From Hygrocybe punicea (lineage: Eukaryota; Basidiomycota; Agaricomycetes; Agaricales; Hygrophoraceae), in the NCBI GenBank assembly GCA_963556145.1, contig OY744463.1, positions 7,130,001 to 7,194,000 of the forward strand: 64,000 nt of DNA. Direction: 5' to 3'. The position numbers were made by a program, and so were the translations under genes. Every line of letters begins with the position of its first letter. Position 1 is the stretch's first letter. This document shows, one piece after another, positions 4,300-35,551 of this stretch. The notes below the pieces were generated by a model that was given only the letters and a program-made list of their open reading frames with translations, was not told where the DNA came from and ran no database searches.

Positions 4300-4500
4300 T
4301 TCATCGGTGAATGTGCAAAAGGTCTGAGGTGGTCTGACATGGTCTGGCATTGTCTGGTCCAGACCCCCAGATCCCCCAGACAGCCAAGACCCTTCAGTAG
4401 ATTGCCATTTTCCCAAGACCTCCCAGACCATCTCCCAAGTTTCTCCCAGACCTCCCAGACCTCCAGACCATACACACTGCCAGACCACTTGCAGACCACT
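4300..4500. repeat. CCAGACC-rich low-complexity stretch
   Basis: Many degenerate copies of CCAGACC, CCCAGACCTC and their complement TGGTCTG, making short inverted and direct repeats. It marks the sharp change from the DUF6534 fragment to transposon-derived DNA. The frames across it are repeat translations, not genes. Confidence 0.6.
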
Positions 4501-5689
4501 GCTATAATATTAGTTTTATTTTTCTTATTGTGTTTTGCACATGACTTGGTGAATGCCATTTTTGGATATTGTTTTGAGACATACACTTTGAACTGCTATA
4601 TCTCACTCAAAACTTCATATTTTGGCCTGAAAGTTTGGCTGTGGGCAGCTGAGTACTGTATCTAGGTGCACTGAATTTTACAGCATTTAATTTGAAGTTT
4701 TTGAAAACTCAAATTTTGGAGGCTTGGTCCTGTCTTCAGATGGTTCGAGAGTATGGAAAGCAGCACTGATCAGCTCAAATTCATAAGCATGCCAATTGAT
4801 GTCCAACGTGCCATTGCATGAGGACCCAAGACACTTCATTTAGTTACTAAATACTAACACTTGAGATGCCACCAAAGCCCTCTGAGTACCATAGTAATAT
4901 CCTATACATGGTAATAACCAGTTCGGGAATGTCATGCCAGTCAGGGCTTGGGCTTTCCCATTGCCGTTGCCCGCTCGTCGTCATCAACGATGAGCACAAC
5001 TAATTCATTATCCCACAAAAATTTCTTCCAGATATTTATATGTATCACATATATTCTTATAAATAGTGTGTATATAGCCTAATATACATGAAAATACATG
5101 AAAGAAAAAGGAAAGAAAAAAAGAAAGAAAAAATATATACATGGAGTGCTGCCACCAAATTTATGGGTACCCACCTTCAGAGAGGCATTTCTGTTGATCT
5201 ATCCTTGATGGGGAATCGTGTTGGAGAGTGAGTAAGGGGTGGGGAAAGGCTGGCCTGAGTGAGGGTTGGCAATAGGTGGTGGGGAAGAGGTGGGAAGCAA
5301 GGTTGATGGTGGATAAGGTGAGGGGAGGGATAAATGATGGTTCCCAGCCGCGAACAAGCAGCGGAAACAGGTAAGTACATTTGGGAAAAAGCGGGTGGGG
5401 GGTGGGTACTCACCTTTGCCCTTGGGGCCCCCCACGGCCCTCCCAGCATCCCACCATTAATATAGACAATGGAGACGTCATCTACGATGTCTCCATCATC
5501 TTTCTTGTGATTTTCACAGTCCCGATCGGTTGCAGCATTGAGTTGTGCAGGGGCGGCGGCAAAGGTAGCGGCAGTGGCGATATCTCATCAACGATGACAC
5601 TGTTGATGACACAATTGCCGTGGGCAACCCTTGACATTGCCGTCATCATCTTCGTTGCTGTGCGCCTGGTCCGCCACCACTGGTTTTGA

Positions 5690-19046: not shown

Positions 19047-19122
19047 ATGGGGAACGCTCGACAAAAACAAAGCTGAGGTCCCAAAGCACACCGGGCAGCT
19101 CCTGTCCCTAAGGACCTGCCGG
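19047..19122 (+). pseudogene. SAM-like gene, copy 2: 5' piece before the retrotransposon
   Basis: ATG 19047 opens a frame MGNARQKQS that meets TGA at 19074 and then resumes in frame as GPKAHRAAPVPKDLP up to the retrotransposon. The TGA sits where CGA would give arginine. Removing the element and one CCGG joins this piece in frame to 33974. The MG..-QKQ/KRQKQ style start parallels copy 1 (15973). Confidence 0.5.
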
Positions 19123-20507
19123 TGTCATGACCCCAAGTGTTTTTGGGTGTAATGTCATGGGTTTACCATCGGACCACGGACTTAGATATTTAAGTGCAAC
19201 ACTATGGATGCACACCTACACTCATTAGTACCCATTCTATGCCTTTCCACATTACGCATGCTAGTGAACAGACACAAATAGCATATATGCTTACCTTTAT
19301 ATCATTTATTATGGCTTCACTAGTAATGCCCAGACCTAGCCATTTATGTATGGTGCACAGAGGCACATCCCCCACTCATTAGTATTTACTATATATTTCT
19401 CTGTATTGCGCGTGCAAGGAGACAAGCCCAACTAGCATTGTTACCTATATTAGCAGTAATGGATTGATTACAAATCTTGTTTACTTGTATTGATCAAAAG
19501 CGGCTCAGCTAGATAATGGGAAATGATTAGATAAGATGTGAACAAGAGGATGATAAGATAATGATAAGATAGGATGCATCAGAGAGTGATTGTGATATTC
19601 TGCTTACATAAAGACAATGGTCTATTGTTCTGAGCAGTCTATTGTTCTAAACAGTCCAAATGGAGATAGAGCCCATTGTTCACAGCCTCTTTGATGCCAT
19701 CCATTGTTCTCATGACTCAGTCCTATTGTTCTCACTTTCCCATTGTTCTCAGTCCCCCATTGTTCTCCAACAGTATAAATAGGGCCCCCAAATTCCAGTA
19801 GTCAGTAGGATTTCCCCCCTCACCACTCAGTAGTCACTCTCAGTTGGGTTCACACAGTGTGATCCCCCATTCTCTTAGTACTAGTAGTTACTCATTGTAG
19901 TAGCTAGTGCTTGCAATCCAGTCTAGTTCACTCTTATTCTATCATTCTCTGAGTTCCCCTTGTCATCAAGGAGAATTCACCCAGTTCACTCAGTTCAATC
20001 AATTCATTAGTCAGCATTAGTCAGCTAGATACATTTCTAAGGTTAAGGTTTCATCCTAAATAGATACACTTCTAAGGTTAAAGTTTCATCCTAAACAAAA
20101 CAGAGTATTCAAAAGGTATTAAAGATATCCCTGAACTAGTAGCCAATGTGCGTTTGAAGCTTCGGATTTAAGTCAGATATTATAATACCCAGAGATACTC
20201 TTGATTGAATAGGCCCTGTAGCCAAAACTGTCCATATTCAACTGGTGAATATTGTTATCAGTATTCATTAGTAGTGAATATTAGTATTTTCAGTACATCA
20301 CACACCCAATTGCTATTCATCCCTACTCAAAGTCTCAATTCTTAATTAAAGAGACCTCACTATTACATTCTATTGGTTCATATAGTACATATACCCACAA
20401 ACCCCTTCCTGATAGGTTATTTAGATATTAAAACCCACGAACAACAAGAAGGTACCTGAACAAAGTCAACTCCGGTAATTCTTGGTGAAACAAACATTCA
20501 CATAACA
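19123..20507 (+). repeat. 5' LTR (1,385 bp)
   Basis: Starts TGTCATGACCCCAAG, ends ACATTCACATAACA. U3 carries a GATAAG cluster (about 19512-19578), seven ATTGTTC motifs and a TATA box. The open frame at 19194 is duplicated exactly in the 3' LTR and is not considered a gene. Confidence 0.95.
19512..19782 (+). promoter_or_regulatory. U3 promoter: GATA cluster, ATTGTTC array and TATA box
   Basis: Four or more GATAAG/GATAAT sites lie at 19512-19578. ATTGTTC occurs at 19624, 19641, 19675, 19703, 19725, 19742 and 19759; three successive spacings are exactly 17 bp. TATAAATAG lies at 19774-19782, 15 bp after the last motif. ATTGTT is the complement of AACAAT, the type of site bound by HMG-box factors, and GATAAG fits fungal GATA factors. 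The arrangement suggests a host-regulated promoter with transcription starting near 19805. The same array is at +13462 in the 3' LTR. Confidence 0.6.
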
Positions 20508-20574
20508 AAATTGGAGCCCACCGCGAGGAGTTTAAATTTAAATAACCCAAGCATTTCTATACCTCTAATACACA
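20508..20574 (+). promoter_or_regulatory. Primer-binding site region and leader
   Basis: Five bases after the 5' LTR, TGGAGCCCACCGCGAGG (20512-20528) begins with TGG, the complement of a tRNA 3' CCA, and would pair with a tRNA 3' end. Which tRNA is not identified. The leader to the Gag start at 20575 is short. Confidence 0.55.
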
Positions 20575-23500
20575 ATGTCCACAAGCACCAGTGCTCGTAC
20601 CCCAGACATGATGCCCCTACTAGGGCAGAAGTCTGCCCCAGCTAAATTCAAAGGAAGCTATGAAGAAGTCAAGAGATTCTTAAGGCATTACAATCAAATG
20701 TGCAAATCCTATGCTGTTTCTGATAAAGAGAAATGTGAAAGGATTGTAGATTACTGCTCCACCAAAGTAGTCAAGCTCATTGAAGCCCTGGAGAGTTACA
20801 TATCCCAGGACTGGAATACTCTTGAGAAAGATATTACTCGCTACTTTGATGCTGCCCTAAAGGAAACAAGATACATTGTTAGAGATCTCATGACCCTTGC
20901 ACGCATTTGGAAACTTAAACAGATTAGAACTCTCACCAAATGGAAGCAATATGAACGCAGGTTCATTACTATTGCAGGATGGTTAGAGAGCAAGAAGAAG
21001 ATCTCTGCAGATGAAAAGGCTGCATACTTCTGGCATGGAATCAACAAGAACCTCAGACATATCATTGAGACACGTCTCAACACTGGATCAACACCTTTAG
21101 ATGTCACATCTCCATTCCCTATGAAAGATGTCATTAAGGTTGCAGAAACTCTATTTGAAAGGAATAGGTTTGACATGAATCTAGCAGATTCAGATTCAGA
21201 TATACCAGGAAGACTAGACAACTCTGTTTCAGAAGACTCTGATACAGATGATTCATCAGAGTATGATACAGATAGTGACTATGAAGCCTGCATCAAGAGA
21301 AAGAAAGCTAGCAAGAAGAAGAAGGCATTCAAATCCAAGGCATATGATTCAGATGATGAACTATTTAAGAAGACAGTAAGGAAAGAAACTGAGAAGAAAG
21401 ATAATGGCAGGAAGGGGATAGACAGGAAGTCTACCTCCACATCATCATCACACCAGAATGAAGTAGAGTCTTTAATCAAGCAAATGGGAAAGCTTTCTTT
21501 GGATGATATTAAGTATGGACTAGCATACTATAGAGCCTTGAAGCTAGATCCAGACATTGCTCACTGTATTAGCCCACCTGAGTTGAAACAACCTCAGCAA
21601 AAGCAAGCACAGTCACAGCAAACACAAAGACCTCCCTTCAAAATCTCAGCTGCCAATAGTGTTGGCCTTCCACCAAACCCTTCTACTAGTTCGTTTAACC
21701 CTACCAATTCGTTTACTCCTTCCAATGAACAAAGAGGACCCATGACCTGCTATGGTTGTGGAGGACAAGGACATGGTATGCAAACATGTTTCCAAATAAA
21801 TGAATTACTCAAGACAGGCAAGATAACCAAGGATGGTCTTGGAAGGATTGTTTATCCAGATGGCTCAATAATTCGCAGAAATATGGGTGAGACATTTGTA
21901 CAAGCAATTGATAGACATGTAGCTGAAAAGGCCAGCAATGTCCAGTCACACTTCTATGTATTACAAGATCAATTCTCTGATTACTATCAATCTGATGCTG
22001 AAGAAGATTTTGAAGCATATACTATACCTACAATCAAGGAAGAAGAAATACAAATCCTGCCTGCAGTCAGAGGACCACAGAAAATTGGTGCAGCAAGGAA
22101 GGAAGTATTAGATGGAGTATATCCTCCCACAGGTATTAAGGCCAAAGGAAAAGAGAATATAAGGCCTAATACAGTACTGCCACCCATTCCTAAAGGCCCA
22201 GTCAAACCCGGCCCTCTTTCAGCACAGAAGCAAGCTCAAGCACATGTACCCGCACCATTACCTTTTGCTCTCAAGAAGACAAACCCATTCCATCCTACAG
22301 AAGATCTGCATACAAAACAACCTGTTCCAATGGATATAAGAGCCCCAATACATATTCCTTCAGACACAGATTCAGATGTGGAGATGATAGATCCTTCTCC
22401 AACAAAGCCAGCCAAGACTCATATACAAGGACACAAGGCAAACATAGATAAGAACAAGATCATGGCTGAAAGACATAATGCCATAACTCGTCCAAAGCCC
22501 ACTCCCAGACAATCTGAAATTTCAGTCAATATTGGAGAAACTCAAGTTGTCAATCAAATCCTTGACACACCAGTTACCCTGCGCGTTCGTGAAGTATTAG
22601 CTTCTTCCAAGGAATTATCTGAGCAATTAACAGACATGATCAAGAGAAAGAATGCAAAGGTATCTGCCATTGCAAGCTCATTCATAACCAAGGATCGTGG
22701 AGTGTTAATCAGGCTTCAGATGGAATGTGATAGAAGACCTATTGAAGCCATCATTGACACTGGATCCCAGTTAAATGTGATTAGTAAAAAAGTCTGGAAA
22801 GAAATTATCCAAAGACCTATGGATGTAGGAAAAATTCTCACAATGAATGATGCTAATGGAGGTGAAGGAACATTAAAAGGATTGGTCTCAGAAGTTCCAT
22901 TGACTTGTGGTGGTGTCCTTACCTATGCCAATCTTTACATAGGAGAGACGGTGCCATTTGATTTATTACTTGGAAGACCATGGCAAAGAGGCAACTATGT
23001 TTCTATTGATGAAAGAATAGATGGTACATATTTAGTATTCAAGAATCCTGAAGATTTGACAAACAGATTTGAACTAATGGTCACACCAAGCCATTCTCAA
23101 GCTAATCACATCAGAGGAGCTACTACTGCCCATGCCTCAACATCCTATTTATGCACTTTACCTATGGAACTTGAAGAAACCACTACAATTCCTTTAACTA
23201 AGTCTTATGAACAAAATAAGGCATTAGTCCGCTATAATCCGCAATTTCAAACTCCGCTTAAACCGAATTATTTTACCGAAATGATTACATGCTTACAGGA
23301 TAAGCCTTATTTGGATAAGGATAAGTCTGAAGTAAAAGGAGATAAAAGTATCTCATGCTTCAATATCCCCAAAAATGCATATGATGGCTCGAAACTTTTT
23401 GCATTGTCCATAGCCCATTGTGATGACATGAACAATGAAGAATCTGAATTTTCTAAAAGGAGAAAGATAAGAAATGGATTTTCACACCAGGGAAATTTAG

Positions 23501-26500
23501 ATAGGAATTGCTATAAAAACTCTGAAGAAATGGGAGAGACAGTAGCCATGTCTGCTGCACAAACCCCCCAGATCCCACCTTTTATGATCAATAACCACCC
23601 TCTTCCTCTCCCTGTAGAAGGGATCCACTCCAATGGTCATCCAGATGCTGGCCGACTTATCACTTCCTTTTTGGGAAATTCCCTTGATTACCAATCTCCC
23701 CATTTAAGTAAATTTTTGATTGCTGCCACTGTAGGATATAGGCTTTCTCTGGGGATTGATTCCCTTGGTGTTCCTTTTGAGCACGGAATTTTATTAAATG
23801 CTTCTCTAGCTACAATAAATTCTCCAAGTGTCCCCCCCTCTTTAAGGATGGGACATTTAGTTTTTCAATTTTACCCATTTGCTAACCCTTCTACTGAGGA
23901 GAACTTTTCTCCTCCCCCTGTCCCTCCTCCTTACATAGAGGACTTTTATTCTTTCCCAGTGACCACTCGTGACCCTCGCACGCGCCCCGGCGACATTATT
24001 CCGCCCTTAGAACCGCCCCGTAACCCCATTAACTTACCGGTCACGCGGATTCCCACGGTTGGCTCTTCTGTCCCCGCTATCACGCTCACTGGCGAGGACG
24101 ACCGCGAATCGTCATTGACCAACGATGAGGCGCACGGTTGGAGCCCAATCGAAGGCTGGGAATGGGACTACGAGGTGGGAAAGATCCCGCTTCATCTGTT
24201 CACTGACAAACGACTTCCACTACAGTACACGGAGCGTGGCCGTAGATGCCCCTCCCTGACTACTACCACGCCTCCGGAAAATACTTCGACCCTCGCAGAT
24301 GGTACCACGGACCTTTCCGCGACCACGGACAGCAATTTCTTTCATTTCCGGGGATCCGAAGTCCACTCAACGGCCCCCACCAACGACATTCACCATTCCG
24401 CCCTCGACATCAGCCGCGACCTGTTCGAACATACAGATCATGACGGATACGAGGCAGGTGATGAAGGGGAAGTAGAATGGCCAGGTTGCACGGTGTGTAC
24501 TAGGCACCCCGCTCACGAAAAATGCCCGGATTTTACCTCACTCACGAAAAAGCCTTCTTTTGACGATTATACGGCCCCGGCGGCCACCGTTCAGCTCGCA
24601 ATACGCACGGAACCCATGAACGGCCACAATGCCATCCCTGATAGTGACCTCCTCGACGTTATTATCCCCACTTCTCCGCGCACGCCGTTAGTTGCATCCC
24701 TCCTCAAATCCACTAACTATATACCGGCAAATCATGAACGTAGCGCCCCGGCGCTCGTTTATGACCACGGACTCCCACCTGGTCTCAATATGCCGCTTGA
24801 TGCCCATTTACGCGACACTTCGCCCGGTCTCATCAATCACTACCCCACTTCCGCGAAAACCCCCGAATTTGTTTTCCCTGCTGATGACGACTGGGACTGG
24901 CCCATCGGCCAGGTCAGATATATCAACCCCGTCGTGCTCGAACCGCCCCGCATGCTTTACAACCACGCAGAGGTAAATTACGCATTTCCACCCCCTCCTC
25001 ATGCCGAATTGGGACGCGAGCCGATTTCCTGGCCCCCCAGCGATCCGGACCTCTTATCAGACGTCTCCAACCATGCCACCCCTGGTTCCGATGTAGGAAA
25101 CATTTGGTTCCCTGCTACTTCTTATTTGCCTACTCCCCCTTTTACCCCTTTTAATAGTAGTGAAAATTTTGTACCTTTAGTCTCTAGCTCCCCTTCTATG
25201 TCTTTTGATGATCTATATGGTGATTTAGGATATTCTCCTAAGTCTCCTATCTTTGAGGAAATTTTGCCAGATTTAAATAATAATAGTGATGATTATTTAT
25301 ATTCTTCAAATAAATACATAGATAGTAAAGATACTTCTATGTCTGTAGATTCTCAATCACCTTCTTCTGTTTATTCTGGGAGTGACTCTGAAAATAAGGC
25401 TGTCAAGATCCTAAGCCCCAAACCAGATCCACTCACCATCATTATTCCTCATACCACTTCCATAAATTCATCTCTACCTCAGCCTTATCAGGAACCTGGA
25501 TCTAGGACTAGACCTATCAGTGTGTCCTCTTCTGAGGACATTAATTCATCTTCTGATGAATCCATGGACACAGACTCAGATGAAGAATTAGAATGGTTCG
25601 CTTGGACTAGGTCTGATTCCCTAGATTCAGAAGCAATAACAGAATTTAATTCAGACCTCAGTCAGGCCATTGAAGAAGCCCAGCAGCCGCTCGATTCCCC
25701 TCCAGGCTTGATATCGCTTTCGCCTACACCACCCCCACTTGAAGATATACCTTTGTTACAATTGCCACCTGTCTCAGACAAAACTTGGTCCTTGCCAGAG
25801 GGTGAGGAAATCAATACCCCCTCTGATGAATATGCCAGACTCCCATTTGATCGTGCCAATGCCTTAAATGCAGGAGAACGCATTTCGCCCTTACCTCCCT
25901 CCAAGGATCCCAGATCCCCATTTAGTGTCAGATCAGGCCCATTATATCCAGAATCCAATCTACTCACTCAGCTTCGCATGGAAGCACCTCCTATTCGCCC
26001 TCAATCACCCATTCAAGTGTATTCCTTCACCATCTCCAATGCTGGCTCCTCTCATCAGGACTTAGCTGCTGCAAGAATCTTAACAGCTGAGCCAGACCAC
26101 ATGTCTACATTTGATGTTCACATCAGTTTCCTCAAAGCTATTAGAGGATCCTTGGTTGAAGGCATTCGCAGAATTGGATTCAAGCTAGCCACCCCTGACT
26201 GGAGGGCCCTCATCAATGAAAGGCCTTCAAATGACCCCGTCCGCTATTATTTCAACCACAAGTGTTTACTATTTCGGTTTCTGGAAGAAGGAGTTTCTGA
26301 AGGACTACCTGAACCTGCAACAGAGCATTTTAGGCCCCTTCACTTCACAGAGTCAAACCCTCTCCTTGAAGAAGAAGAAATCACCTTCCTCAAAAATTCC
26401 TCTATCATCTTTCGCTCCAATCGCCGCATGTTACTCTCTGATGCTATCAATGCAGTCTTGGATATGCGCTTTCGCCGCCCTGAAGCAGTGGCAGATTTGC

Positions 26501-26553
26501 TTAAGGAAGGATATTTTGATCCTCCCAAATATCTCAAGTCCACAATTACTTAG
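20575..26553 (+). CDS. gag: Retrotransposon Gag-protease polyprotein with long C-terminal extension
   Basis: 1,992 codons without a stop. Residues about 20-200 are Gag-like and helical. A CCHC zinc knuckle (CYGCGGQGHGMQTC) is at 392-405. The retropepsin active site IIDTGSQLNVI has its aspartate at 728 and the LLLGRPW motif lies near 798. After about residue 835 the ORF continues for over 1,100 residues with no known domain: an AT-rich part, a GC-rich insert (about residues 1126-1519), an acidic serine-rich part, and a helical end (about 1830-1992) starting near FDVHISFLKAIRG. Standard gypsy Gag-Pro proteins end soon after the protease. Pol overlaps in the +1 frame (26216-26553), so frameshifting or separate initiation is needed. 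Confidence 0.9.
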   Translation: MSTSTSARTPDMMPLLGQKSAPAKFKGSYEEVKRFLRHYNQMCKSYAVSDKEKCERIVDYCSTKVVKLIEALESYISQDWNTLEKDITRYFDAALKETRYIVRDLMTLARIWKLKQIRTLTKWKQYERRFITIAGWLESKKKISADEKAAYFWHGINKNLRHIIETRLNTGSTPLDVTSPFPMKDVIKVAETLFERNRFDMNLADSDSDIPGRLDNSVSEDSDTDDSSEYDTDSDYEACIKRKKASKKKKAFKSKAYDSDDELFKKTVRKETEKKDNGRKGIDRKSTSTSSSHQNEVESLIKQMGKLSLDDIKYGLAYYRALKLDPDIAHCISPPELKQPQQKQAQSQQTQRPPFKISAANSVGLPPNPSTSSFNPTNSFTPSNEQRGPMTCYGCGGQGHGMQTCFQINELLKTGKITKDGLGRIVYPDGSIIRRNMGETFVQAIDRHVAEKASNVQSHFYVLQDQFSDYYQSDAEEDFEAYTIPTIKEEEIQILPAVRGPQKIGAARKEVLDGVYPPTGIKAKGKENIRPNTVLPPIPKGPVKPGPLSAQKQAQAHVPAPLPFALKKTNPFHPTEDLHTKQPVPMDIRAPIHIPSDTDSDVEMIDPSPTKPAKTHIQGHKANIDKNKIMAERHNAITRPKPTPRQSEISVNIGETQVVNQILDTPVTLRVREVLASSKELSEQLTDMIKRKNAKVSAIASSFITKDRGVLIRLQMECDRRPIEAIIDTGSQLNVISKKVWKEIIQRPMDVGKILTMNDANGGEGTLKGLVSEVPLTCGGVLTYANLYIGETVPFDLLLGRPWQRGNYVSIDERIDGTYLVFKNPEDLTNRFELMVTPSHSQANHIRGATTAHASTSYLCTLPMELEETTTIPLTKSYEQNKALVRYNPQFQTPLKPNYFTEMITCLQDKPYLDKDKSEVKGDKSISCFNIPKNAYDGSKLFALSIAHCDDMNNEESEFSKRRKIRNGFSHQGNLDRNCYKNSEEMGETVAMSAAQTPQIPPFMINNHPLPLPVEGIHSNGHPDAGRLITSFLGNSLDYQSPHLSKFLIAATVGYRLSLGIDSLGVPFEHGILLNASLATINSPSVPPSLRMGHLVFQFYPFANPSTEENFSPPPVPPPYIEDFYSFPVTTRDPRTRPGDIIPPLEPPRNPINLPVTRIPTVGSSVPAITLTGEDDRESSLTNDEAHGWSPIEGWEWDYEVGKIPLHLFTDKRLPLQYTERGRRCPSLTTTTPPENTSTLADGTTDLSATTDSNFFHFRGSEVHSTAPTNDIHHSALDISRDLFEHTDHDGYEAGDEGEVEWPGCTVCTRHPAHEKCPDFTSLTKKPSFDDYTAPAATVQLAIRTEPMNGHNAIPDSDLLDVIIPTSPRTPLVASLLKSTNYIPANHERSAPALVYDHGLPPGLNMPLDAHLRDTSPGLINHYPTSAKTPEFVFPADDDWDWPIGQVRYINPVVLEPPRMLYNHAEVNYAFPPPPHAELGREPISWPPSDPDLLSDVSNHATPGSDVGNIWFPATSYLPTPPFTPFNSSENFVPLVSSSPSMSFDDLYGDLGYSPKSPIFEEILPDLNNNSDDYLYSSNKYIDSKDTSMSVDSQSPSSVYSGSDSENKAVKILSPKPDPLTIIIPHTTSINSSLPQPYQEPGSRTRPISVSSSEDINSSSDESMDTDSDEELEWFAWTRSDSLDSEAITEFNSDLSQAIEEAQQPLDSPPGLISLSPTPPPLEDIPLLQLPPVSDKTWSLPEGEEINTPSDEYARLPFDRANALNAGERISPLPPSKDPRSPFSVRSGPLYPESNLLTQLRMEAPPIRPQSPIQVYSFTISNAGSSHQDLAAARILTAEPDHMSTFDVHISFLKAIRGSLVEGIRRIGFKLATPDWRALINERPSNDPVRYYFNHKCLLFRFLEEGVSEGLPEPATEHFRPLHFTESNPLLEEEEITFLKNSSIIFRSNRRMLLSDAINAVLDMRFRRPEAVADLLKEGYFDPPKYLKSTIT
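23950..25130 (+). other. GC-rich in-frame segment inside the first ORF
   Basis: Flanking sequence is AT-rich and uses codons such as AGA and TTA. From about 23950 to 25130 the sequence turns rich in CGC, CCG, GCG and ACG codons without breaking the frame. It encodes proline- and aspartate-rich protein with DDDWDWP and GWEWDYEVG stretches and a CTVCTRHPAHEKC cysteine-histidine cluster. The sharp edges suggest a captured segment of other origin. Confidence 0.6.
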
Positions 26554-29500
26554 TGATTTGTTTACTCTTGCAACAATATTTTTGCCCCTATGTCAAACCT
26601 CTCTTCTTTATATCTGTCTGTACTACATTTTATTACTTGATGTGATAGTGTACAAGTTTATATTTTCAAAGACTATTCAGGATTTGACATCCTTAGCCAG
26701 CCCTAGTATACCTGTGTACAAACAAACTGAACTGACAAATATAACTTCTGTCAGACTGTATGAAGAGGACCCTCAAAATTCTAAGCATGAAGATAAGCCA
26801 CTAGAACAATTCAGTGTATACTATGAGACTATTAAGGATAGCCAAGAAACAACTATGCCTATTTTAGTCTACCCAGAAGATGAAGACAATCAAGATTACA
26901 ATCTTAATGAAGTACCAAATAAGCAAGAAAGTGCCTCAGAAGAAGCAGACTATTACTACATTATAGGAGAAGGAACCTTAATATGTGAAGAAGGAGACAT
27001 TCTCATATTCCCTTGTGAAGAAACAGATAGTCAAGGATATCCATTAACACTTACAGCTTACAAAAGAGTGGACAAGAAAATAAATCCTGTCCCTGGAACC
27101 TTTCCAGAAGATGCACGTGTTACAAGGAAATTTCCCTATGACCCTCTTTCCACATTACCACCACTTCCTATGATACCACCAGACTTCATACCTACAGAGA
27201 AGCTTACATCTGAACGTCTGAAGATACTCAAGATAAACAATGATGGATTTCTTTGGCCAGAAGAAGAAAAATTATTTACTCACCTCTTGTCACTTAACCA
27301 AGATGCTATTGGCTTTGAAGATACTGAAAGAGGCACACTTAAGGAATCTTACTTTTCACCATACATCATCCCTACTGTCCCACATGTACCCTGGGCATTT
27401 CGAAATATTCCTATACCACCAGGACTTAGAGAAAAAGTCATGGATGTTTTGAAGAGAAAAATAGATGCTGGTGTATATGAACCAAGTCAATCCTCTTATA
27501 GGTCAAGATGGTTTTGTGTAAGCAAGAAGGATGGAAAACTTCGTATAGTCCATGATTTGCAACCTCTCAATGCAGTTACAATACGTGATGCAGGCCTTCC
27601 TCCAATACTAGATGAATTTGTAGAACCTTTTGCTGGTCGCCAATGCTATACAGTCTTCGATTTACTATGGGGATTTGATGCTAGGAAAGTACATCCTACA
27701 TCTCGTGACCTCACTGCATTCATGACACCACTGGGATTACTTCGTCTCACATCACTTCCCACTGGATTCACAAATTCACCTGCAGAATTCCAACGTTGTA
27801 TGTGCTTCATCCTTCAAGATGAAATCCCTCATACTGCAAATAGCTTCATTGATGATTTACCTATAAAAGGACCTTCATCCATTTATCCTGATCAAGATGG
27901 AAGACCAGAAGTTTTACTAGAAAATCCAGGAATCAGAAGGTTTATTTGGGAGCACGCTCAAGATGTACATCGCATTATGCATCGCCTTGCTTGTGCAGGA
28001 ATGACAATATCAGCTAAGAAGACACAACTTTGCCGCTCAAGTGTTGTGATCGTAGGACAGAAATGCACTCCGGAAGGACGTTGTCCTGATGATAGTAGAG
28101 TACAAAAGGTTTTGGACTGGCCCCCACTCAAGACTCCCAAGGATGTTAGAGGCTTCCTAGGTCTCTGTGGAACAGTTCGCATTTGGATAGAAAATTATTC
28201 TGCACTAGCCAAGCCACTAGCAGAGTTATTCCATAAAGGAGCAGAGTTTATATGGGATGAAAGAAGACAAGCAGCTTTCCAGGCATTGAAAGAAAAGGTA
28301 TCTTCAGCACCTGCACTCCGCTCTATTGATTATACATCAGATAGACCCACATATTTATCAGTAGACAGTAGCCATATTGCTGCCGGTTTTATTTTATCAC
28401 AAGAAGATGAAAATGGAAATCGTCGCCCTGCTAGATATGGTTCAATACCAATGAGTGAAAGAGAATCCAGATATTCACAGCCAAAACTGGAGTTATATGG
28501 ACTATACCGCGCGTTACGCCACTGGAGACTGTATTTAATAGGAATAAAGAATTTACATATAGAGGTAGATGCCAAGTTTATAAAAGGCATGCTCAATGAA
28601 CCGGATTTACAGCCTAATGCAGCCATAAACAGATGGATTCAAGGAATTTTATTATTTGACTTCAAACTTATTCATGTACCTGCAACCCAGTTTAGGGGAC
28701 CAGATGCACTTTCTCGCAGAGAACTTGCAGATAATGAAGAAATTGAAGAGCATGATGATTCATGGCTAGATGATATTGCCTTGCTTGTTCATGTTCCTGA
28801 TCCACATGAAATAAGAAAATTTAGCTTCACTGTCCCTACCAAATTGCCATACAAGGCCATCACACTCCCTTCAAATAATGAAATTAAATTACAACAGGAC
28901 AAGATACTCATTCAAGTAAAACATTTTTTATCCACATTGGAAATGCCTTCAACAGATACCTTGCAGGCAAGAAGAAGATTTCTGAAGAAAACTGGACAAT
29001 TTTATTTAAAAGATGATAAACTGTTTAGAAGAAATGGCCAGAAAATGCCTTCATTAGTGATTATGAATGCAAAGAAAAGAATCGCTATTCTCACTCAAGC
29101 TCATGAAAACCTAGGTCATAAAGGAGAACAAGCTGTGTTTGACTTAGTCAAACTTCAATTTTTTTGGCCTCATCTCAGAGCAGATGTCCATTACCACATT
29201 TCATCATGTCATCAGTGTCAAATTAGGAGCTTGAAGAAAATCGAAATTTCCCCTACAATTTCTACCCCTACAGCAATTTTTCAAAAGGTATACATTGATG
29301 TAATGTTTATGCCACCTTCAGGAGGCTACCATTTCATTGTAGCAGCACGTGATGATTTATCAGGAGCAACTGAAGTAAAAGCTCTAAGATCAAACAATTC
29401 ACACAACTTAGCAAAATTTTTCTGGGAACAGATCTATTGTCGCTATGGTGCCATTGAACATGTAGTTACTGATAATGGAGGAGAAGTCAAAGGAGCATTT

Positions 29501-29944
29501 GAGTCTCTGCTTAGAAGACTAGGAATTCCTCAAGTTCGCATATCACCCTACAATAAGCATGCAAATGGTGTAGTAGAAAGAGGACATTTTACTCTACGTG
29601 AAGCCATAGTCAAGTCCTGTGAAAAAGATAAGACTGGAAAAATCAAGAATTGGCACAAGCACGTAGAGTTAGCATCATTTGCAGACCGAATTACAGTCAG
29701 CAGTGTTACTGGATACTCACCTTATTATCTACTCCATGGCACTCATCCTATACTTCCCTTTGACCTAACAGAAGCCACATTTATGGTTGAAGGTTTTTGC
29801 TCAGGACTTTCTACATCAGATTTGTTAGCACTCCGCATACGTCAGCTTGGAAGACATCAAGAAGATATTGATAAAGCAGCAGCTGTGCTTAAACAGGCTC
29901 GCTTCATATCTAAATTGCAATTTGATCAGAGATTTCATAGATGA
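26216..29944 (+). CDS. pol: Retrotransposon Pol: reverse transcriptase, RNase H, integrase
   Basis: Open frame of 1,242 codons in the frame +1 to Gag; the true start is uncertain because the first 110 codons overlap Gag-Pro. RT runs from about residue 436 (KKDGKLRIVHDLQPLN) with LPTGFTNSPAEFQR and the catalytic FIDD at about 544. RNase H begins near 711 (YLSVDSSHIAAGF) with the EVDAKF motif near 785. Integrase has a zinc finger (HENLGH near 963, CHQC near 997), first aspartate in YIDVMF (about 1027), second in VTDNGG (1086) and glutamate in VVERGH (1121). It ends at TGA 29942-29944, directly before the integrase C-terminal module, which continues in the same frame. All core catalytic residues seem kept. 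Confidence 0.9.
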   Translation: MKGLQMTPSAIISTTSVYYFGFWKKEFLKDYLNLQQSILGPFTSQSQTLSLKKKKSPSSKIPLSSFAPIAACYSLMLSMQSWICAFAALKQWQICLRKDILILPNISSPQLLSDLFTLATIFLPLCQTSLLYICLYYILLLDVIVYKFIFSKTIQDLTSLASPSIPVYKQTELTNITSVRLYEEDPQNSKHEDKPLEQFSVYYETIKDSQETTMPILVYPEDEDNQDYNLNEVPNKQESASEEADYYYIIGEGTLICEEGDILIFPCEETDSQGYPLTLTAYKRVDKKINPVPGTFPEDARVTRKFPYDPLSTLPPLPMIPPDFIPTEKLTSERLKILKINNDGFLWPEEEKLFTHLLSLNQDAIGFEDTERGTLKESYFSPYIIPTVPHVPWAFRNIPIPPGLREKVMDVLKRKIDAGVYEPSQSSYRSRWFCVSKKDGKLRIVHDLQPLNAVTIRDAGLPPILDEFVEPFAGRQCYTVFDLLWGFDARKVHPTSRDLTAFMTPLGLLRLTSLPTGFTNSPAEFQRCMCFILQDEIPHTANSFIDDLPIKGPSSIYPDQDGRPEVLLENPGIRRFIWEHAQDVHRIMHRLACAGMTISAKKTQLCRSSVVIVGQKCTPEGRCPDDSRVQKVLDWPPLKTPKDVRGFLGLCGTVRIWIENYSALAKPLAELFHKGAEFIWDERRQAAFQALKEKVSSAPALRSIDYTSDRPTYLSVDSSHIAAGFILSQEDENGNRRPARYGSIPMSERESRYSQPKLELYGLYRALRHWRLYLIGIKNLHIEVDAKFIKGMLNEPDLQPNAAINRWIQGILLFDFKLIHVPATQFRGPDALSRRELADNEEIEEHDDSWLDDIALLVHVPDPHEIRKFSFTVPTKLPYKAITLPSNNEIKLQQDKILIQVKHFLSTLEMPSTDTLQARRRFLKKTGQFYLKDDKLFRRNGQKMPSLVIMNAKKRIAILTQAHENLGHKGEQAVFDLVKLQFFWPHLRADVHYHISSCHQCQIRSLKKIEISPTISTPTAIFQKVYIDVMFMPPSGGYHFIVAARDDLSGATEVKALRSNNSHNLAKFFWEQIYCRYGAIEHVVTDNGGEVKGAFESLLRRLGIPQVRISPYNKHANGVVERGHFTLREAIVKSCEKDKTGKIKNWHKHVELASFADRITVSSVTGYSPYYLLHGTHPILPFDLTEATFMVEGFCSGLSTSDLLALRIRQLGRHQEDIDKAAAVLKQARFISKLQFDQRFHR

Positions 29945-30664
29945 TTGCAAAAACGTGATTATCAGCCAGGAGAACTAGTTCTAGTATATAATAGTCGTTT
30001 GGAGATGACTATAGGAAAATTCAAGACAGACCCTCGTTACCTTGGCCCATATGAAGTTGTCAGACAAACAAGAAGAGGAACTTATGTTTTAAAAGAATTA
30101 GATGGTGCTGTGCATGCTGAGCATTATGCAGCATTTCGGATTTTACCATACATTTATCGAACTGACCCTATCCTTTATAAAATAGCAGACCAGGAAGATG
30201 AAGCTGCTGAAGTAGAGGATTGCTCAGTAAATCAGTTAATATCTCTTAAATCAGGAGACATCACAGATATTATTCTTGCCATCAAGCCAGAATTTGCTGC
30301 ACACATTGCATCACGCACAAAGAATTTTGAATTTAGAAAATATCAAGTTCCAGCCACTGTCTGTCACATGTGGCTTTATGAAACAACGCCAATCAGTTCC
30401 ATTACAGGTGTCATTACAGTTGGTTCAGTAAAAGTACCAGGAGAAGTCAATGACCCCTCAGGTCTTGGCAATGAAGACTTTGATGCAGGTTTAAAGTTGT
30501 CAAAATATGGTTATCCTATATATCATCTTCATCAGTTACAAGTACCACTATCCGCAGATCTACTCCAGAAGAGATACAATACTATTATTCCTCACCGCTA
30601 TTGTATAGCCCCACACTCATTCATTCAAGATTTTCCTTTTTCTGCATTGATTCCAATATTCTAG
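29945..30664 (+). CDS. Integrase C-terminal GPY/F module fused to an ASCH-like domain
   Basis: In frame with pol after a single TGA. Residues about 8-65 form the GPY/F module (GELVLVYNSRLE, YLGPYEVVRQTRRGTYVLKEL). Residues about 107-205 look like an ASCH (PUA-like) domain: ILAIKPEFAAHIASRTKNFE, FRKY, HMWLYETTP, ITGVITVGSVK, then YPIYHLHQL. ASCH domains are small beta-barrels thought to bind RNA; the KPEFA..I..RTKNFEFR pattern corresponds to the usual KPxxAxxIxxGxKxxExR signature. The 239-residue stretch has no good start of its own (TTG follows the stop), so it would be made by readthrough, or the stop is a mutation. The domain call is from pattern recognition only. Confidence 0.7.
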   Translation: MQKRDYQPGELVLVYNSRLEMTIGKFKTDPRYLGPYEVVRQTRRGTYVLKELDGAVHAEHYAAFRILPYIYRTDPILYKIADQEDEAAEVEDCSVNQLISLKSGDITDIILAIKPEFAAHIASRTKNFEFRKYQVPATVCHMWLYETTPISSITGVITVGSVKVPGEVNDPSGLGNEDFDAGLKLSKYGYPIYHLHQLQVPLSADLLQKRYNTIIPHRYCIAPHSFIQDFPFSALIPIF

Positions 30665-31768
30665 CACCTTTGGTGACTGAATATTTAGTTATATCCAAGA
30701 CCCCTATCCCTCATGTGATTTCCCGCTGTACACCCTCTTTTTCTATGCCCCATGCATTTTTATTGGCCGCTATTTTTACCTATGCACATGATTTCCCGTC
30801 ACGCACCCTTTTTTTTATGCTATCTAAACTGATTAGATAAATTTTATTTGTTTTATGATTTGCTGGTCATTTTTAAGTCAGACATGCAAAGAAAATATAT
30901 ATAACGCTACAAAGTGATAATACAACCCCTCTCATCTAATAGTTGACGGACCCATTATATGAATACAATGATAATATATATAAAAGACATAACGAAACGT
31001 AACGAAACGTAACGTAATGAAATGACAAGACATAATGAAATAGAAAATAGAATAAAAGGAAATACAACTGGTGTATGAATAGAAAGATAAAGAAATGGAC
31101 GAACGACCGGTGACCCTCCACTCCCAGTAGTCCAGCAACTGAGTCCCACCCGAAAAATATAGCGCTCGCCCCTAGTTGAAACGGAGTGATGCTCAACATC
31201 ACCCCCGGCCCGTCCATCCTCCAGACGAATTCGTTGTCAAACGATTGCAGATAGTAGTAAGGAACGGCTAGATTTAGACCGTCTTATCTACATGCCAATT
31301 ATTCAGTAATTGTGAAAATTGAATATAAATATAAGAAGTTACTTAGCGGTTTGGTTTTTCTTGAGTTTTTCTTGAAGGGAGGATGGAGTGACCATTCATA
31401 GCGTCGGATAGATTTTTTTTACGATTTATTGCATAGTGGCATAGCAAGAAAAAGGAGTGGAGCACTACAGAACCATAGTGGCAGACTAGAGGAAAGAAAA
31501 GACGGATCGTGCAAATGTACAGCTATGACCCTGGAAAACACGTGACCGGCACATGTTTTCTCATGTGACCTGAGTAAACGGTCTAGACCAAATAAGCATT
31601 GGTACTATTGCAGATCTGTACCCGATACAGCTTCAAGACCCTGAAGAACCAAGGGAATGGTAAAATCCCGATTTGATCGATCATACAACCTTAAATCGAA
31701 TTTGAAATACATCATCCCAATATAGCAAGGCCAGGGCTAGTTTAGTTCTGGACCCACAGGGACCTATT
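30665..31768 (+). other. Spacer between pol and the extra ORF
   Basis: About 1.1 kb without a credible gene. It has an ACGAAACGTA simple repeat near 30990-31020 and a GC-richer part from 31090. Nothing like an envelope gene is seen. Confidence 0.5.
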
Positions 31769-32497
31769 GTGACACAGCGTCCCACATTAGTATTGCTTGA
31801 CCCACCATTCCGGTTCCCCCATAAATATTTTCCCTTAACGTCTCCTGTTACATCAACTGCACCGCTATTCCACTCAGCGCTTCAGCACTACCAGACGCCC
31901 ACATACCGTAATCCATATCATACTATGACATCATACTCCAGTCCTTCACCTTCTCCATCTATGGATATTCCTCTACGCCATCTCGATTTATCACGCTTAT
32001 TCGATACTCCCACTGAATACGATACGGACTTCTTTACCAAACCAACTAGTCCTGCTCAGACACCACCGCTACCCCCTTCGGAATCTGACGAATACATCGA
32101 TTTCGAATCTGTGAACGTACAAGGTGTTGACTGTCCGCCGCCAGACGATTTCGACTTTTTCATGGATAGTCTTCCCAACTTTCCTATGCCACCCGCCACC
32201 GTCCCTTCGCAATCTGTACCCTTAGACCCGGAGTTTAGAGAATGGCTCGAATCGCCTCCTTCATTTTCCACAAATCATAATCACCCAACTTCCTCTCACC
32301 GCAATCGTTTCGAACGCCCTGCAATTCCGGCATTACTTCCTAAGCCGCTACAAAAGAAGCGCACTCGCCCTAAGTACCACCTCAAGGCGCTATTAAATGC
32401 TACGAAGAAGAACATGGATCGGTTAAAGGCAGAAGGAGTTGATGTACAAGATTGGGAGGAATTCTTTGGAAAGATGAAGAAGAAGTTAAAAGAATAG
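31769..32497 (+). CDS. Extra ORF upstream of the 3' LTR, unknown function
   Basis: 242 codons from 31769; a second start at 31925 (MTSYSSPSPSPSMDIPLRHL) may be the real one. The centre is acidic and proline-rich (LSRLFDTPTEYDTDFF, PPPDDFDFFMDSLPNFPMPP), and the last 60 residues are basic and helical (KKRTRPKYHLKALL, ending FFGKMKKKLKE). There are no transmembrane segments or envelope-like features. The acidic patch plus basic helix would suit a nuclear or chromatin-associated protein, but that is inference. The ORF lies in the position where some LTR elements carry an extra gene and uses more CG-containing codons than pol. It stops about 90 bp before the 3' LTR. Confidence 0.6.
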   Translation: MTQRPTLVLLDPPFRFPHKYFPLTSPVTSTAPLFHSALQHYQTPTYRNPYHTMTSYSSPSPSPSMDIPLRHLDLSRLFDTPTEYDTDFFTKPTSPAQTPPLPPSESDEYIDFESVNVQGVDCPPPDDFDFFMDSLPNFPMPPATVPSQSVPLDPEFREWLESPPSFSTNHNHPTSSHRNRFERPAIPALLPKPLQKKRTRPKYHLKALLNATKKNMDRLKAEGVDVQDWEEFFGKMKKKLKE

Positions 32498-32584
32498 TAA
32501 TAATGTAAAAGCTTCTTCTCAGATTAAAAAGTTGTTTTCTTTTGGTTTCAACTGGGGACAGTTGATTTAATTGTGTTGTGCGGA

Positions 32585-33969
32585 TGTCATGACCCCAAGT
32601 GTTTTTGGGTGTAATGTCATGGGTTTACCATCGGACCACGGACTTAGATATTTAAGTGCAACACTATGGATGCACACCTACACTCATTAGTACCCATTCT
32701 ATGCCTTTCCACATTACGCATGCTAGTGAACAGACACAAATAGCATATATGCTTACCTTTATATCATTTATTATGGCTTCACTAGTAATGCCCAGACCTA
32801 GCCATTTATGTATGGTGCACAGAGGCACATCCCCCACTCATTAGTATTTACTATATATTTCTCTGTATTGCGCGTGCAAGGAGACAAGCCCAACTAGCAT
32901 TGTTACCTATATTAGCAGTAATGGATTGATTACAAATCTTGTTTACTTGTATTGATCAAAAGCGGCTCAGCTAGATAATGGGAAATGATTAGATAAGATG
33001 TGAACAAGAGGATGATAAGATAATGATAAGATAGGATGCATCAGAGAGTGATTGTGATATTCTGCTTACATAAAGACAATGGTCTATTGTTCTGAGCAGT
33101 CTATTGTTCTAAACAGTCCAAATGGAGATAGAGCCCATTGTTCACAGCCTCTTTGATGCCATCCATTGTTCTCATGACTCAGTCCTATTGTTCTCACTTT
33201 CCCATTGTTCTCAGTCCCCCATTGTTCTCCAACAGTATAAATAGGGCCCCCAAATTCCAGTAGTCAGTAGGATTTCCCCCCTCACCACTCAGTAGTCACT
33301 CTCAGTTGGGTTCACACAGTGTGATCCCCCATTCTCTTAGTACTAGTAGTTACTCATTGTAGTAGCTAGTGCTTGCAATCCAGTCTAGTTCACTCTTATT
33401 CTATCATTCTCTGAGTTCCCCTTGTCATCAAGGAGAATTCACCCAGTTCACTCAGTTCAATCAATTCATTAGTCAGCATTAGTCAGCTAGATACATTTCT
33501 AAGGTTAAGGTTTCATCCTAAATAGATACACTTCTAAGGTTAAAGTTTCATCCTAAACAAAACAGAGTATTCAAAAGGTATTAAAGATATCCCTGAACTA
33601 GTAGCCAATGTGCGTTTGAAGCTTCGGATTTAAGTCAGATATTATAATACCCAGAGATACTCTTGATTGAATAGGCCCTGTAGCCAAAACTGTCCATATT
33701 CAACTGGTGAATATTGTTATCAGTATTCATTAGTAGTGAATATTAGTATTTTCAGTACATCACACACCCAATTGCTATTCATCCCTACTCAAAGTCTCAA
33801 TTCTTAATTAAAGAGACCTCACTATTACATTCTATTGGTTCATATAGTACATATACCCACAAACCCCTTCCTGATAGGTTATTTAGATATTAAAACCCAC
33901 GAACAACAAGAAGGTACCTGAACAAAGTCAACTCCGGTAATTCTTGGTGAAACAAACATTCACATAACA
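32585..33969 (+). repeat. 3' LTR (1,385 bp)
   Basis: Same length and, by eye, same sequence as 19123-20507, ending CACATAACA before CCGG. The bases just upstream are only weakly purine-rich (CTGGGGACAG near 32555), so no firm polypurine tract can be called. Confidence 0.95.
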
Positions 33970-35551
33970 CCGGTTGAGGCTGGCAAAAGCCCTACGCCCC
34001 CTTGTCCTCGAACACGTCCCAAACCAACGCCAGCCTACAAAGTGCGCGACAACAACAGACTAGACGACTCGGAGCCGGATGTCGAAGTGCTAGATCGCGA
34101 CGAGGTATACAATCCACCTCCTGGCTCCGACAACGAGTGAGACGCCAACGATGTCAACATCCTTGTCAAAAAGCTTCTTGGGCCAGCTGGGGCTGCGGAC
34201 GCAAAACGCAATGAAGAATTTGACGTCGTCAAAGGCTTCAGCTCGGATTCTGATGCTGATTCCGAACCCGATGGTTTTCTGGTTTTTTATTCACATATTT
34301 CCTACGCTTACGCTAATTTACAGAAGTTCTCTGCCTCGAATTCAATATCCCTATCGGGACCGCATCCGACGTACAAAATTTTTCATCCGACATCACTTGG
34401 AGTATGTTTTGTAGCGAGGTTGCCGATGTGATGGATATTCGGCGTTCCGAACTCGAGGTGGCCTATAAGTTTAGCACATGGACTGCCAAGGCGCGACCTC
34501 TCCTACTCACCAAAGCAACTCAACTTGCTGCGTTATTCGATGCCGCACGGACAGAGTTGAATCAGATGGCTAAGGCTAAAGGTAAAAAGAAGGCATTTCA
34601 GGTTATTCTCGTCGATCAACGCGAAACGTCTCGCAAGGGTGGAAAGAGACGGGCAGACGATAAGAAGGACAAGGTAAATTTTCAATTGATAATACTATGT
34701 ACTGGACTGACTACATGCTTGGACAAGGTGAAGGCCAAGAGGAAGAAACGAGCGGACACAGATGAGGAGAGTGGGAACGACACCGAATCGGGGAAGAAAA
34801 TGTCGAAGACATCCGCCGATTACATTGCCGAGATTACGGAGAACCTCAAATGTCCTCTTCACGACGGCAAACCCTGTGTCAAATATCCGGAGGGCCATCA
34901 CTACACCTTACAAATAACTGATCTAAGTCTCTGGGGCATGCTTCTCGTGAGTCCCCCATTTATTTATTGCTTAACGAGACTCATTGTAGTCCACGTCAGG
35001 CAAACGGCTCGTATGATTCGACCATCTCGCCACCTGTCCAGTTGAAGCTTGGCGATGCTTCCTCTCGCCGGCACGTAAATGCGAAACCCGCTCAAGTTGC
35101 TGCTACAAGCGGTGCGGCTCAACCGATCATCATTCAGATGCCACCTCCATATGGTGGATCGAGGCACCACTATTCCCCGTACACCCCTCCATCGGCCGTA
35201 CCCAAAAAATCATCTCGCTCCCGACGTGATGGGCCGCACATCCCCAGCTCAGACACCATAGATTTCGATGACATCCCCAATGTCTTCCCAGCCATCCCCA
35301 CTTGGCTTGCTGCACTCGACTCCAGTGCTCGGGGCATCGATGGAGATAATTTTTCCCAGTATACTGATGCCATCCGGGCGAATGGGTTCAGGCGCATCCA
35401 CGAGCTTGCCGGTGAAGGTCTTGCTAATGAGACTATCACCCATTTCTCGACCGTTTGCAATATCCCAATTGGAATCGCGAAACGAATTCTCAAGTTTGTG
35501 CAGAAGGACACGGATCGTATCAAGAAGGCTGAGAGGGCCAACAGGAAATAA
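33970..35551 (+). pseudogene. SAM-like gene, copy 2: main part after the retrotransposon
   Basis: Continues in frame from 19122. The first exon portion (to about 34264) encodes SPTPPCPRTRPKPTPAY and an acidic part, with a TGA at 34138-34140 where CGA would be arginine. An intron (GTTTTCTGG...TTTACAG) leads to an exon from about 34324 with ELEVAYKFSTWTAKARP. A further exon has a C-x-H-x-C-x-H arrangement (CPLHDGKPCVKYPEGHHYTL) and LSLWGMLL. The last exon (about 34990-35551) ends in a SAM-like helical domain (PTWLAALDSS, NGFRRIHELAGEG, IAKRILKFVQKDTDRIKK). The order matches copy 1 at 14110-15973. Function unknown; two nonsense codons and a 14.8 kb insertion make it a pseudogene. Confidence 0.6.

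Follow-up and report, generated by a model that had tools for sequence, protein, structure and literature searches.

Background

Fixation of extra domains in long terminal repeat (LTR) retrotransposons is considered rare (PMC9289625). Chromoviral integrases carry a chromodomain as an accessory at the integrase C-terminus of Ty3/gypsy Pol. Basidiomycete gypsy elements have captured dUTPases at varying places in Pol and from different sources, those of Postia placenta seemingly having been gained independently (PMC2864245), and orchid Ty3/gypsy elements encode an AlkB-type N6-methyladenosine (m6A) demethylase with activity shown in vitro (PMC9289625). Here we describe an ASCH domain in the same kind of element. 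It lies in a 239-residue continuation of the pol frame, at positions 29945-30664 (+ strand), of a Ty3/gypsy retrotransposon in a 64,000-nucleotide stretch of the Hygrocybe punicea genome (contig OY744463.1; hereafter the window). The ASCH domain is unrelated in fold to the chromodomain and differs in fold from the dUTPase, for which the passages of PMC2864245 make no mention of ASCH. Like the AlkB demethylase it is most likely a captured domain, and it may likewise act on RNA; AlkB is encoded in a separate second open reading frame (ORF) and belongs to a plant element. The word ASCH is absent from the main text of a survey of fungal LTR elements (PMC3248453), and no ASCH domain in a retroelement was found among the papers listed by full-text literature searches, outside which most subscription journals lie.

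Among ASCH proteins, ZmASCH of Zymomonas mobilis cleaves single-stranded RNA (ssRNA), and its Tyr47, Lys53 and Ser128 matter by mutation (PMC5615036), while YqfB is an N4-acylcytidine amidohydrolase with the triad Lys21-Thr24-Glu74 (PMC6972931). Modified-base binding in the ASCH/PUA-like superfamily is treated in PMC7641849, in which some ASCH domains are predicted to bind modified bases.

The ASCH domain in gypsy Pol is real, in frame, recurrent and constrained, and is a new kind of cargo in a known kind of element. Our preferred reading, to which we give a probability of roughly 0.53, is that this true ASCH domain came, most likely by capture, from a fungal gene that encodes a small ASCH protein, and is kept as a Pol accessory, a nucleic-acid or modified-base module, in at least two distant Ty3/gypsy lineages.

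An ASCH domain at the end of Pol

Coordinates are those of the window, and all features with a strand lie on the + strand. The 239-residue stretch encodes a GPY/F part, an acidic linker and then the segments KPEFAAHIASRTKNFEFRKY and HMWLYETTP...ITGVITVG, both of which had been quoted from this frame in an earlier note made from the sequence alone. The GPY/F (SH3_Tf2-1-like) module, at 29969-30094, matches Pfam PF24626 below the cut-off (E 0.0016), and the ASCH domain, placed by sequence and fold matches, comprises 133 residues up to the last codon (30263-30661). The earlier note had suggested an ASCH-like domain and set a structural match to ASCH/PUA folds beforehand as the test; the match proved to be strong. 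An AlphaFold2 (AF2) model of the domain (predicted local distance difference test, pLDDT, 95.4) has the ASCH/PUA beta-barrel fold with ASCH as its best fold match. ZmASCH (PDB 5gus/5guq) is the top match in both sequence and fold, being matched by the stretch at E 9e-7 in a phmmer search against PDB sequences, and the PADLOC model PDC-M11B matches the domain at 2.5e-13.

General domain models weigh against this assignment. Pfam ASCH gives the window domain 14.6 bits, below its cut-off of 21.2, and NCBIfam gave no match to the domain; the linked relative P0118, which was found through profile A1 at 2.5e-7, reaches 24.1 bits with Pfam ASCH. Across the H. punicea genome Pfam ASCH had no match at E<=1, with matches in 6 of 14 control genomes, suggesting that the model is too narrow for this group. 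In our reading the end of the window Pol carries a true ASCH (PUA-like) domain, whose fold and in-frame fusion in many copies are shown by computation.

After the first helix lies the motif KNFEFRKY (30320-30343), an instance of the ASCH motif KxxExR (in full GxKxxExR). Its Lys (30320-30322) and Glu (30329-30331) are present in 51/51 aligned sequences and its Arg (30335-30337) in 49/51; the window domain lacks the Gly that opens GxKxxExR. A Tyr that aligns with ZmASCH Tyr47 (30377-30379) is kept in 48 of the 51.

These residues bear on whether the domain is an enzyme, a hydrolase of nucleotides, nucleosides or RNA that would clean the nucleotide pool or trim RNA as a companion of dUTPase. ZmASCH is an ssRNase and YqfB an amidohydrolase, dUTPase also varies in its place in fungal gypsy Pol (PMC2864245), and in the relative P0003 the ASCH domain directly follows a dUTPase. 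We nevertheless regard this as unlikely, since two of the three ZmASCH residues differ and the place of the catalytic Thr24 of YqfB, as set by Lys21-Thr24-Arg26 spacing without a YqfB sequence in the alignment, is Glu in 51/51 sequences. Both specific candidates were rejected on these grounds. For the ZmASCH-type ssRNase, KxxExR and the Tyr47 equivalent are common to both proteins, but Ser stands at the place of Lys53 and Arg at that of Ser128, the latter less surely placed as it was located through the PQS of P0118, ZmASCH not being in the alignment. ZmASCH also differs in that the window domain belongs to a retroelement Pol.

Copies in the Hygrocybe punicea genome

The H. punicea genome (92 Mb, 42 contigs) was searched with the 239-residue stretch. 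The search gave 152 matches, of which 150 are listed; scoring covered 150 of 528 first-look candidates, which makes every copy count a lower bound. Among the 150 listed matches at least 44, the window included (family A), match all but two or fewer of the 239 residues (237 or more) with an identity of 93% or above; at least 42 of them are free of internal stops over the match and at least 22 lie in one open frame of 1491 residues. Family B comprises at least 60 listed matches to the ASCH domain only, at 38-42% identity, with at least 25 in frames of 1435-1451 residues. At least 24 further listed matches (family C) cover the GPY/F part only, at 59-66%, none extending past residue 96, and the three family C loci inspected (L033, L036, L040) end in an acidic tail with no ASCH domain. 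The 5' LTR of family C was looked for in L089 and was not found there. The remaining 22 listed matches consist of one host gene and of copies that are incomplete or diverged.

The earlier note had looked to relatives to show whether this part is present and in frame with integrase. It is in frame in the relative P0002 and in at least 22 matches of the same genome, but it is absent from family C, and in the window copy an in-frame TGA (29942-29944), unmentioned in that note, splits the stretch from the upstream pol ORF whose frame it shares.

Two copies, L034 and L035, are without reverse transcriptase (RT) and integrase; a single open frame, of 1659 residues in L034 and 1668 in L035, joins gag to a GPY/F piece and ASCH (Pfam scan of L034 only). 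From the start of the domain onwards their DNA shares 96.6% (L034) and 91.6% (L035) identity with the window, and in GPY/F 87.1% and 81.4%. Synonymous divergence (dS) between L035 and L059 is 0.18 in ASCH and 1.9 in the linker, which together with this identity pattern is a sign of exchange.

Positions in Pol and domain phylogeny

The ASCH domain occupies three places in Pol, so a fusion to the integrase C-terminus, as first described, stands for the window frame but is too narrow for its relatives. In the window element and P0002, which share their architecture and have 66% identity across the domain, ASCH follows the integrase C-terminus. In family B, a chromovirus (RT, RNase H, integrase, Chromo at residues 1227-1276), it follows the chromodomain. 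In P0003 it lies between RNase H and integrase, the order being RT, RNase H, dUTPase (631-759), ASCH and integrase. The start of P0039 resembles the ASCH region of P0003 without the dUTPase (by eye), and in P0031 the last part of a Chromo domain (E 8e-4) comes first and ASCH next. The presence of the domain elsewhere in the Pol of related elements suggests that it is of use to them.

Position also bears on whether the domain is a reader of modified DNA or chromatin which, like a chromodomain, would steer integration towards a methylated or oxidised base. Its place in family A is that of the chromodomain in chromoviruses, the PUA-like EVE and YTH domains read modified bases and some ASCH domains are predicted to do likewise (PMC7641849), and the ASCH domain of TRIP4 has been crystallised on double-stranded DNA, according to structure titles. 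However, in family B a chromodomain is present alongside ASCH, and in P0003 ASCH precedes integrase, so the place is not tied to targeting, and a reader of this kind appears doubtful.

Families A and C, P0002 and P0003 form one Pol lineage with more than 60% identity in RT-RNase H, from which family B is distant (27-29%); the ASCH domain of B is still 38-40% identical to those of A and P0002. The ASCH tree unites A, P0002, B and P0014 (98/96), and places the P0003 type in a separate group with P0008, P0009, P0031 and P0051 (100/99), of which P0031 alone has a Chromo remnant, the other three being classed alongside it by the tree. The two sets, {A, P0002, L034, B, P0014} and {P0003, P0015, P0039, P0008, P0009, P0031, P0051}, are joined with 64/81 only. 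The domain tree and the Pol backbone therefore disagree, as would be expected if ASCH had moved between lineages. A single clade of chromoviral ASCH domains (B with P0008, P0009, P0031 and P0051) was rejected (p 0.0016), as was a clade of A with the P0003 type (p 0.033), although both clades were named after the tree had been seen, and B has a long branch and an unusual composition. When the end of family B (P0004) was searched against 5.8 billion proteins, nothing was found at E<=0.01 among 156 candidates.

Selection on the domain

Selection was measured by Nei-Gojobori counts, as the ratio of nonsynonymous to synonymous differences per site, either as proportions (pN/pS) or corrected (dN/dS); the pairs are not independent. 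For the ASCH domain of family B the pooled pN/pS was 0.18 (11 of 12 loci, 55 pairs; L058 was left out by the motif filter, though its frame is open). The deepest pairs had a dN/dS of 0.08 with dS saturated, and L032 against L037 gave a dN/dS of 0.18 with a pN/pS bootstrap range of 0.17-0.40. Pooled values were 0.02 for the B chromodomain and 0.16 for the linker before ASCH (7 of 12 loci each, those caught by patterns), and dN/dS in RT-RNase H was 0.012 (one pair, dS 2.5). In family A the pooled values were 0.22 for ASCH, 0.22 for GPY/F and 0.55 for the linker (22-24 matches, some being the same place fetched twice), the linker thus being freer than ASCH; the window against L035 gave 0.10-0.55 by bootstrap. 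The domain is therefore constrained, with silent changes in excess per site, but the Pol core is under stronger constraint, and the linker of B under at least as much.

A functionless passenger, arising by read-through or as a fused host exon, would fit the existence of family C without ASCH, and the pN/pS of ASCH in B, which exceeds the value for the Pol core and is at least as high as in the linker. It is nevertheless extremely unlikely, given pN/pS values far below 1, the many copies with open frames, the occurrence in two Pol lineages and at three positions, and the invariant motif.

Fungal and prokaryotic relatives

A profile built from five domains detected 116 proteins at E<=0.01, many of them stand-alone, from Agaricomycetes and Pezizomycotina. 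The H. punicea genome itself has a host gene of this family at C3:300098-300694 on the minus strand, with two exons by our reading. The fungal stand-alone proteins (~165-235 residues) are ~40-50% identical to the element domain and share the pattern KNHEYRKY...GNDDFD; they differ in that they are host-encoded and extended at the N-terminus, with an intron in the gene of this genome by our reading. Many of the host proteins in P0010-P0041 have an N-terminal MPAERT...(R/K)QxTL motif (by eye). The simplest reading, and the most likely, is that the element acquired ASCH from a fungal host gene coding for a small ASCH protein; the transfer may instead have run in the reverse direction, from element to host gene.

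The presence of this host gene in the same genome would suit a decoy or antagonist that mimics the host's own ASCH protein and interferes, for example, with host defence, as would the matches of PDC-M11B, a phage-defence candidate model, to the window domain and to host proteins P0012 and P0025. We know of no function for the fungal stand-alone proteins, however, and PDC-M11B, a candidate only, behaves as a general ASCH model, scoring 8e-42 on P0118, a protein above Pfam ASCH's own cut-off. A decoy is therefore very unlikely.

Prokaryotic kin are sporadic, with 22 loci in genome_contigs and one in viral_contigs. These loci (L061-L083) include Bacilli, Clostridia, WWE3, Woesearchaeota and Bacteroidales metagenome-assembled genomes. 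A class-I lysyl-tRNA synthetase (LysRS)-like protein of ~359 residues, or pieces of it, adjoins the ASCH gene in 13 of the 23 loci (nine partner genes aligned), and the two are in one 501-residue frame in L065. A second ASCH gene lies next in L068 and L074. In L078 and L079 the ASCH gene is followed by a 338-residue ORF (4422-5435 in both), which is a C5 cytosine DNA methylase in L078; the one in L079 agrees with it in length and position.

Structure of the window element and its primer

The retrotransposon spans 19123-33969. Its nearly identical LTRs (TG...CA, 1385 nt) lie at 19123-20507 (5') and 32585-33969 (3'); they were found by blastn of the two ends of the element, with the termini read, and are 99.9% identical over 1389 columns. 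The target-site duplication CCGG flanks them at 19119-19122 and 33970-33973. The primer-binding site (PBS) at 20512-20528 (17 nt) is complementary to the 3' end, with CCA, of a tRNA-Lys of the same genome. The gag-protease ORF (20569-26553, 1994 residues) has an aspartyl protease at about residues 723-805 by sub-threshold Pfam matches. It differs in frame from the pol ORF (26189-29944), which it overlaps by 365 nt at 26189-26553; in locus L018 the match to the 239-residue query sits in a single open frame of 3364 residues. The pol ORF, closed by the TGA, has RT, RNase H and the integrase zinc-binding domain by Pfam. The integrase core model had no match at E<=1 in the window ORF, yet reached E<1e-5 in P0002, P0003 and P0006, which align along this region, and the core was placed in the pol ORF through this similarity. 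A further open frame between pol and the 3' LTR (31706-32497; 263 residues from stop to stop), also present in L034, had no Pfam match. With its LTRs, target-site duplication, PBS and protease-RT-RNase H-integrase order (the protease being sub-threshold), the window element is a Ty3/gypsy LTR retrotransposon; a Pfam scan found no chromodomain at its integrase C-terminus, and it is not classed as a chromovirus.

As the PBS fits tRNA-Lys and the prokaryotic kin pair with a class-I LysRS-like protein, a link between ASCH and the tRNA-Lys PBS was examined, and the idea that one tracks the other was rejected by families B and C. PBS and family positions were compared by eye, with PBS places on C1 and part of C2 only. 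Family C, without ASCH, has the tRNA-Lys PBS 9-11 kb upstream on the same strand in 4 of 7 matches. Family B, with ASCH, has it within 12 kb in 1 of 10, at 7.2 kb, whereas in L032 the end of the 5' LTR of B lies at ~5.9 kb. The first 14 bases of the PBS were not found in the B loci L032, whose stretch begins inside an LTR, and L037, which spans parts of two element copies. Genome-wide there are 539 occurrences of the 17-nt PBS (275 forward, 264 reverse), a sign that this primer is used by many elements.

Proposed function and significance

Under the preferred reading, the domain probably does its job by binding RNA, DNA or a modified base. It would be a module that binds nucleic acid or a modified base and that is carried along with Pol into the particle or the pre-integration complex, and it would act as a free unit, because its place in relatives is ahead of integrase in some and behind it in others. 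As its ligand we would first guess at RNA, either that of the element or tRNA, or at a modified base of RNA or DNA; the ligand would sit in a pocket marked by the KxxExR motif and the conserved Tyr.

Several points weigh against this reading. A strongly basic RNA-binding surface is not evident, as the net charge is 0 for the window domain and 0 to +3 for five others. The sister family C does without ASCH, and only Tyr47 is kept of the three ZmASCH residues that matter by mutation. The ASCH domain of B (0.18) evolves faster than RT-RNase H (0.012) and the chromodomain (0.02) and no slower than the linker (0.16), so the constraint on it is not far above that of its surroundings.

More tentatively, a host base- or tRNA-recognition domain may have become a movable accessory of gypsy Pol, captured or swapped at least twice, and could offer a handle on a modification or tRNA pathway that the prokaryotic kin run with the class-I LysRS-like enzyme.

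Fixed extra domains such as the chromodomain, dUTPase and AlkB hint at what limits an element in its host. The retention of ASCH by two gypsy lineages, and its three different positions in Pol, indicate that some ASCH ligand, be it RNA, DNA or a modified base, may matter to fungal retrotransposition, and the uncharacterised family of fungal ASCH proteins gains its first functional lead.
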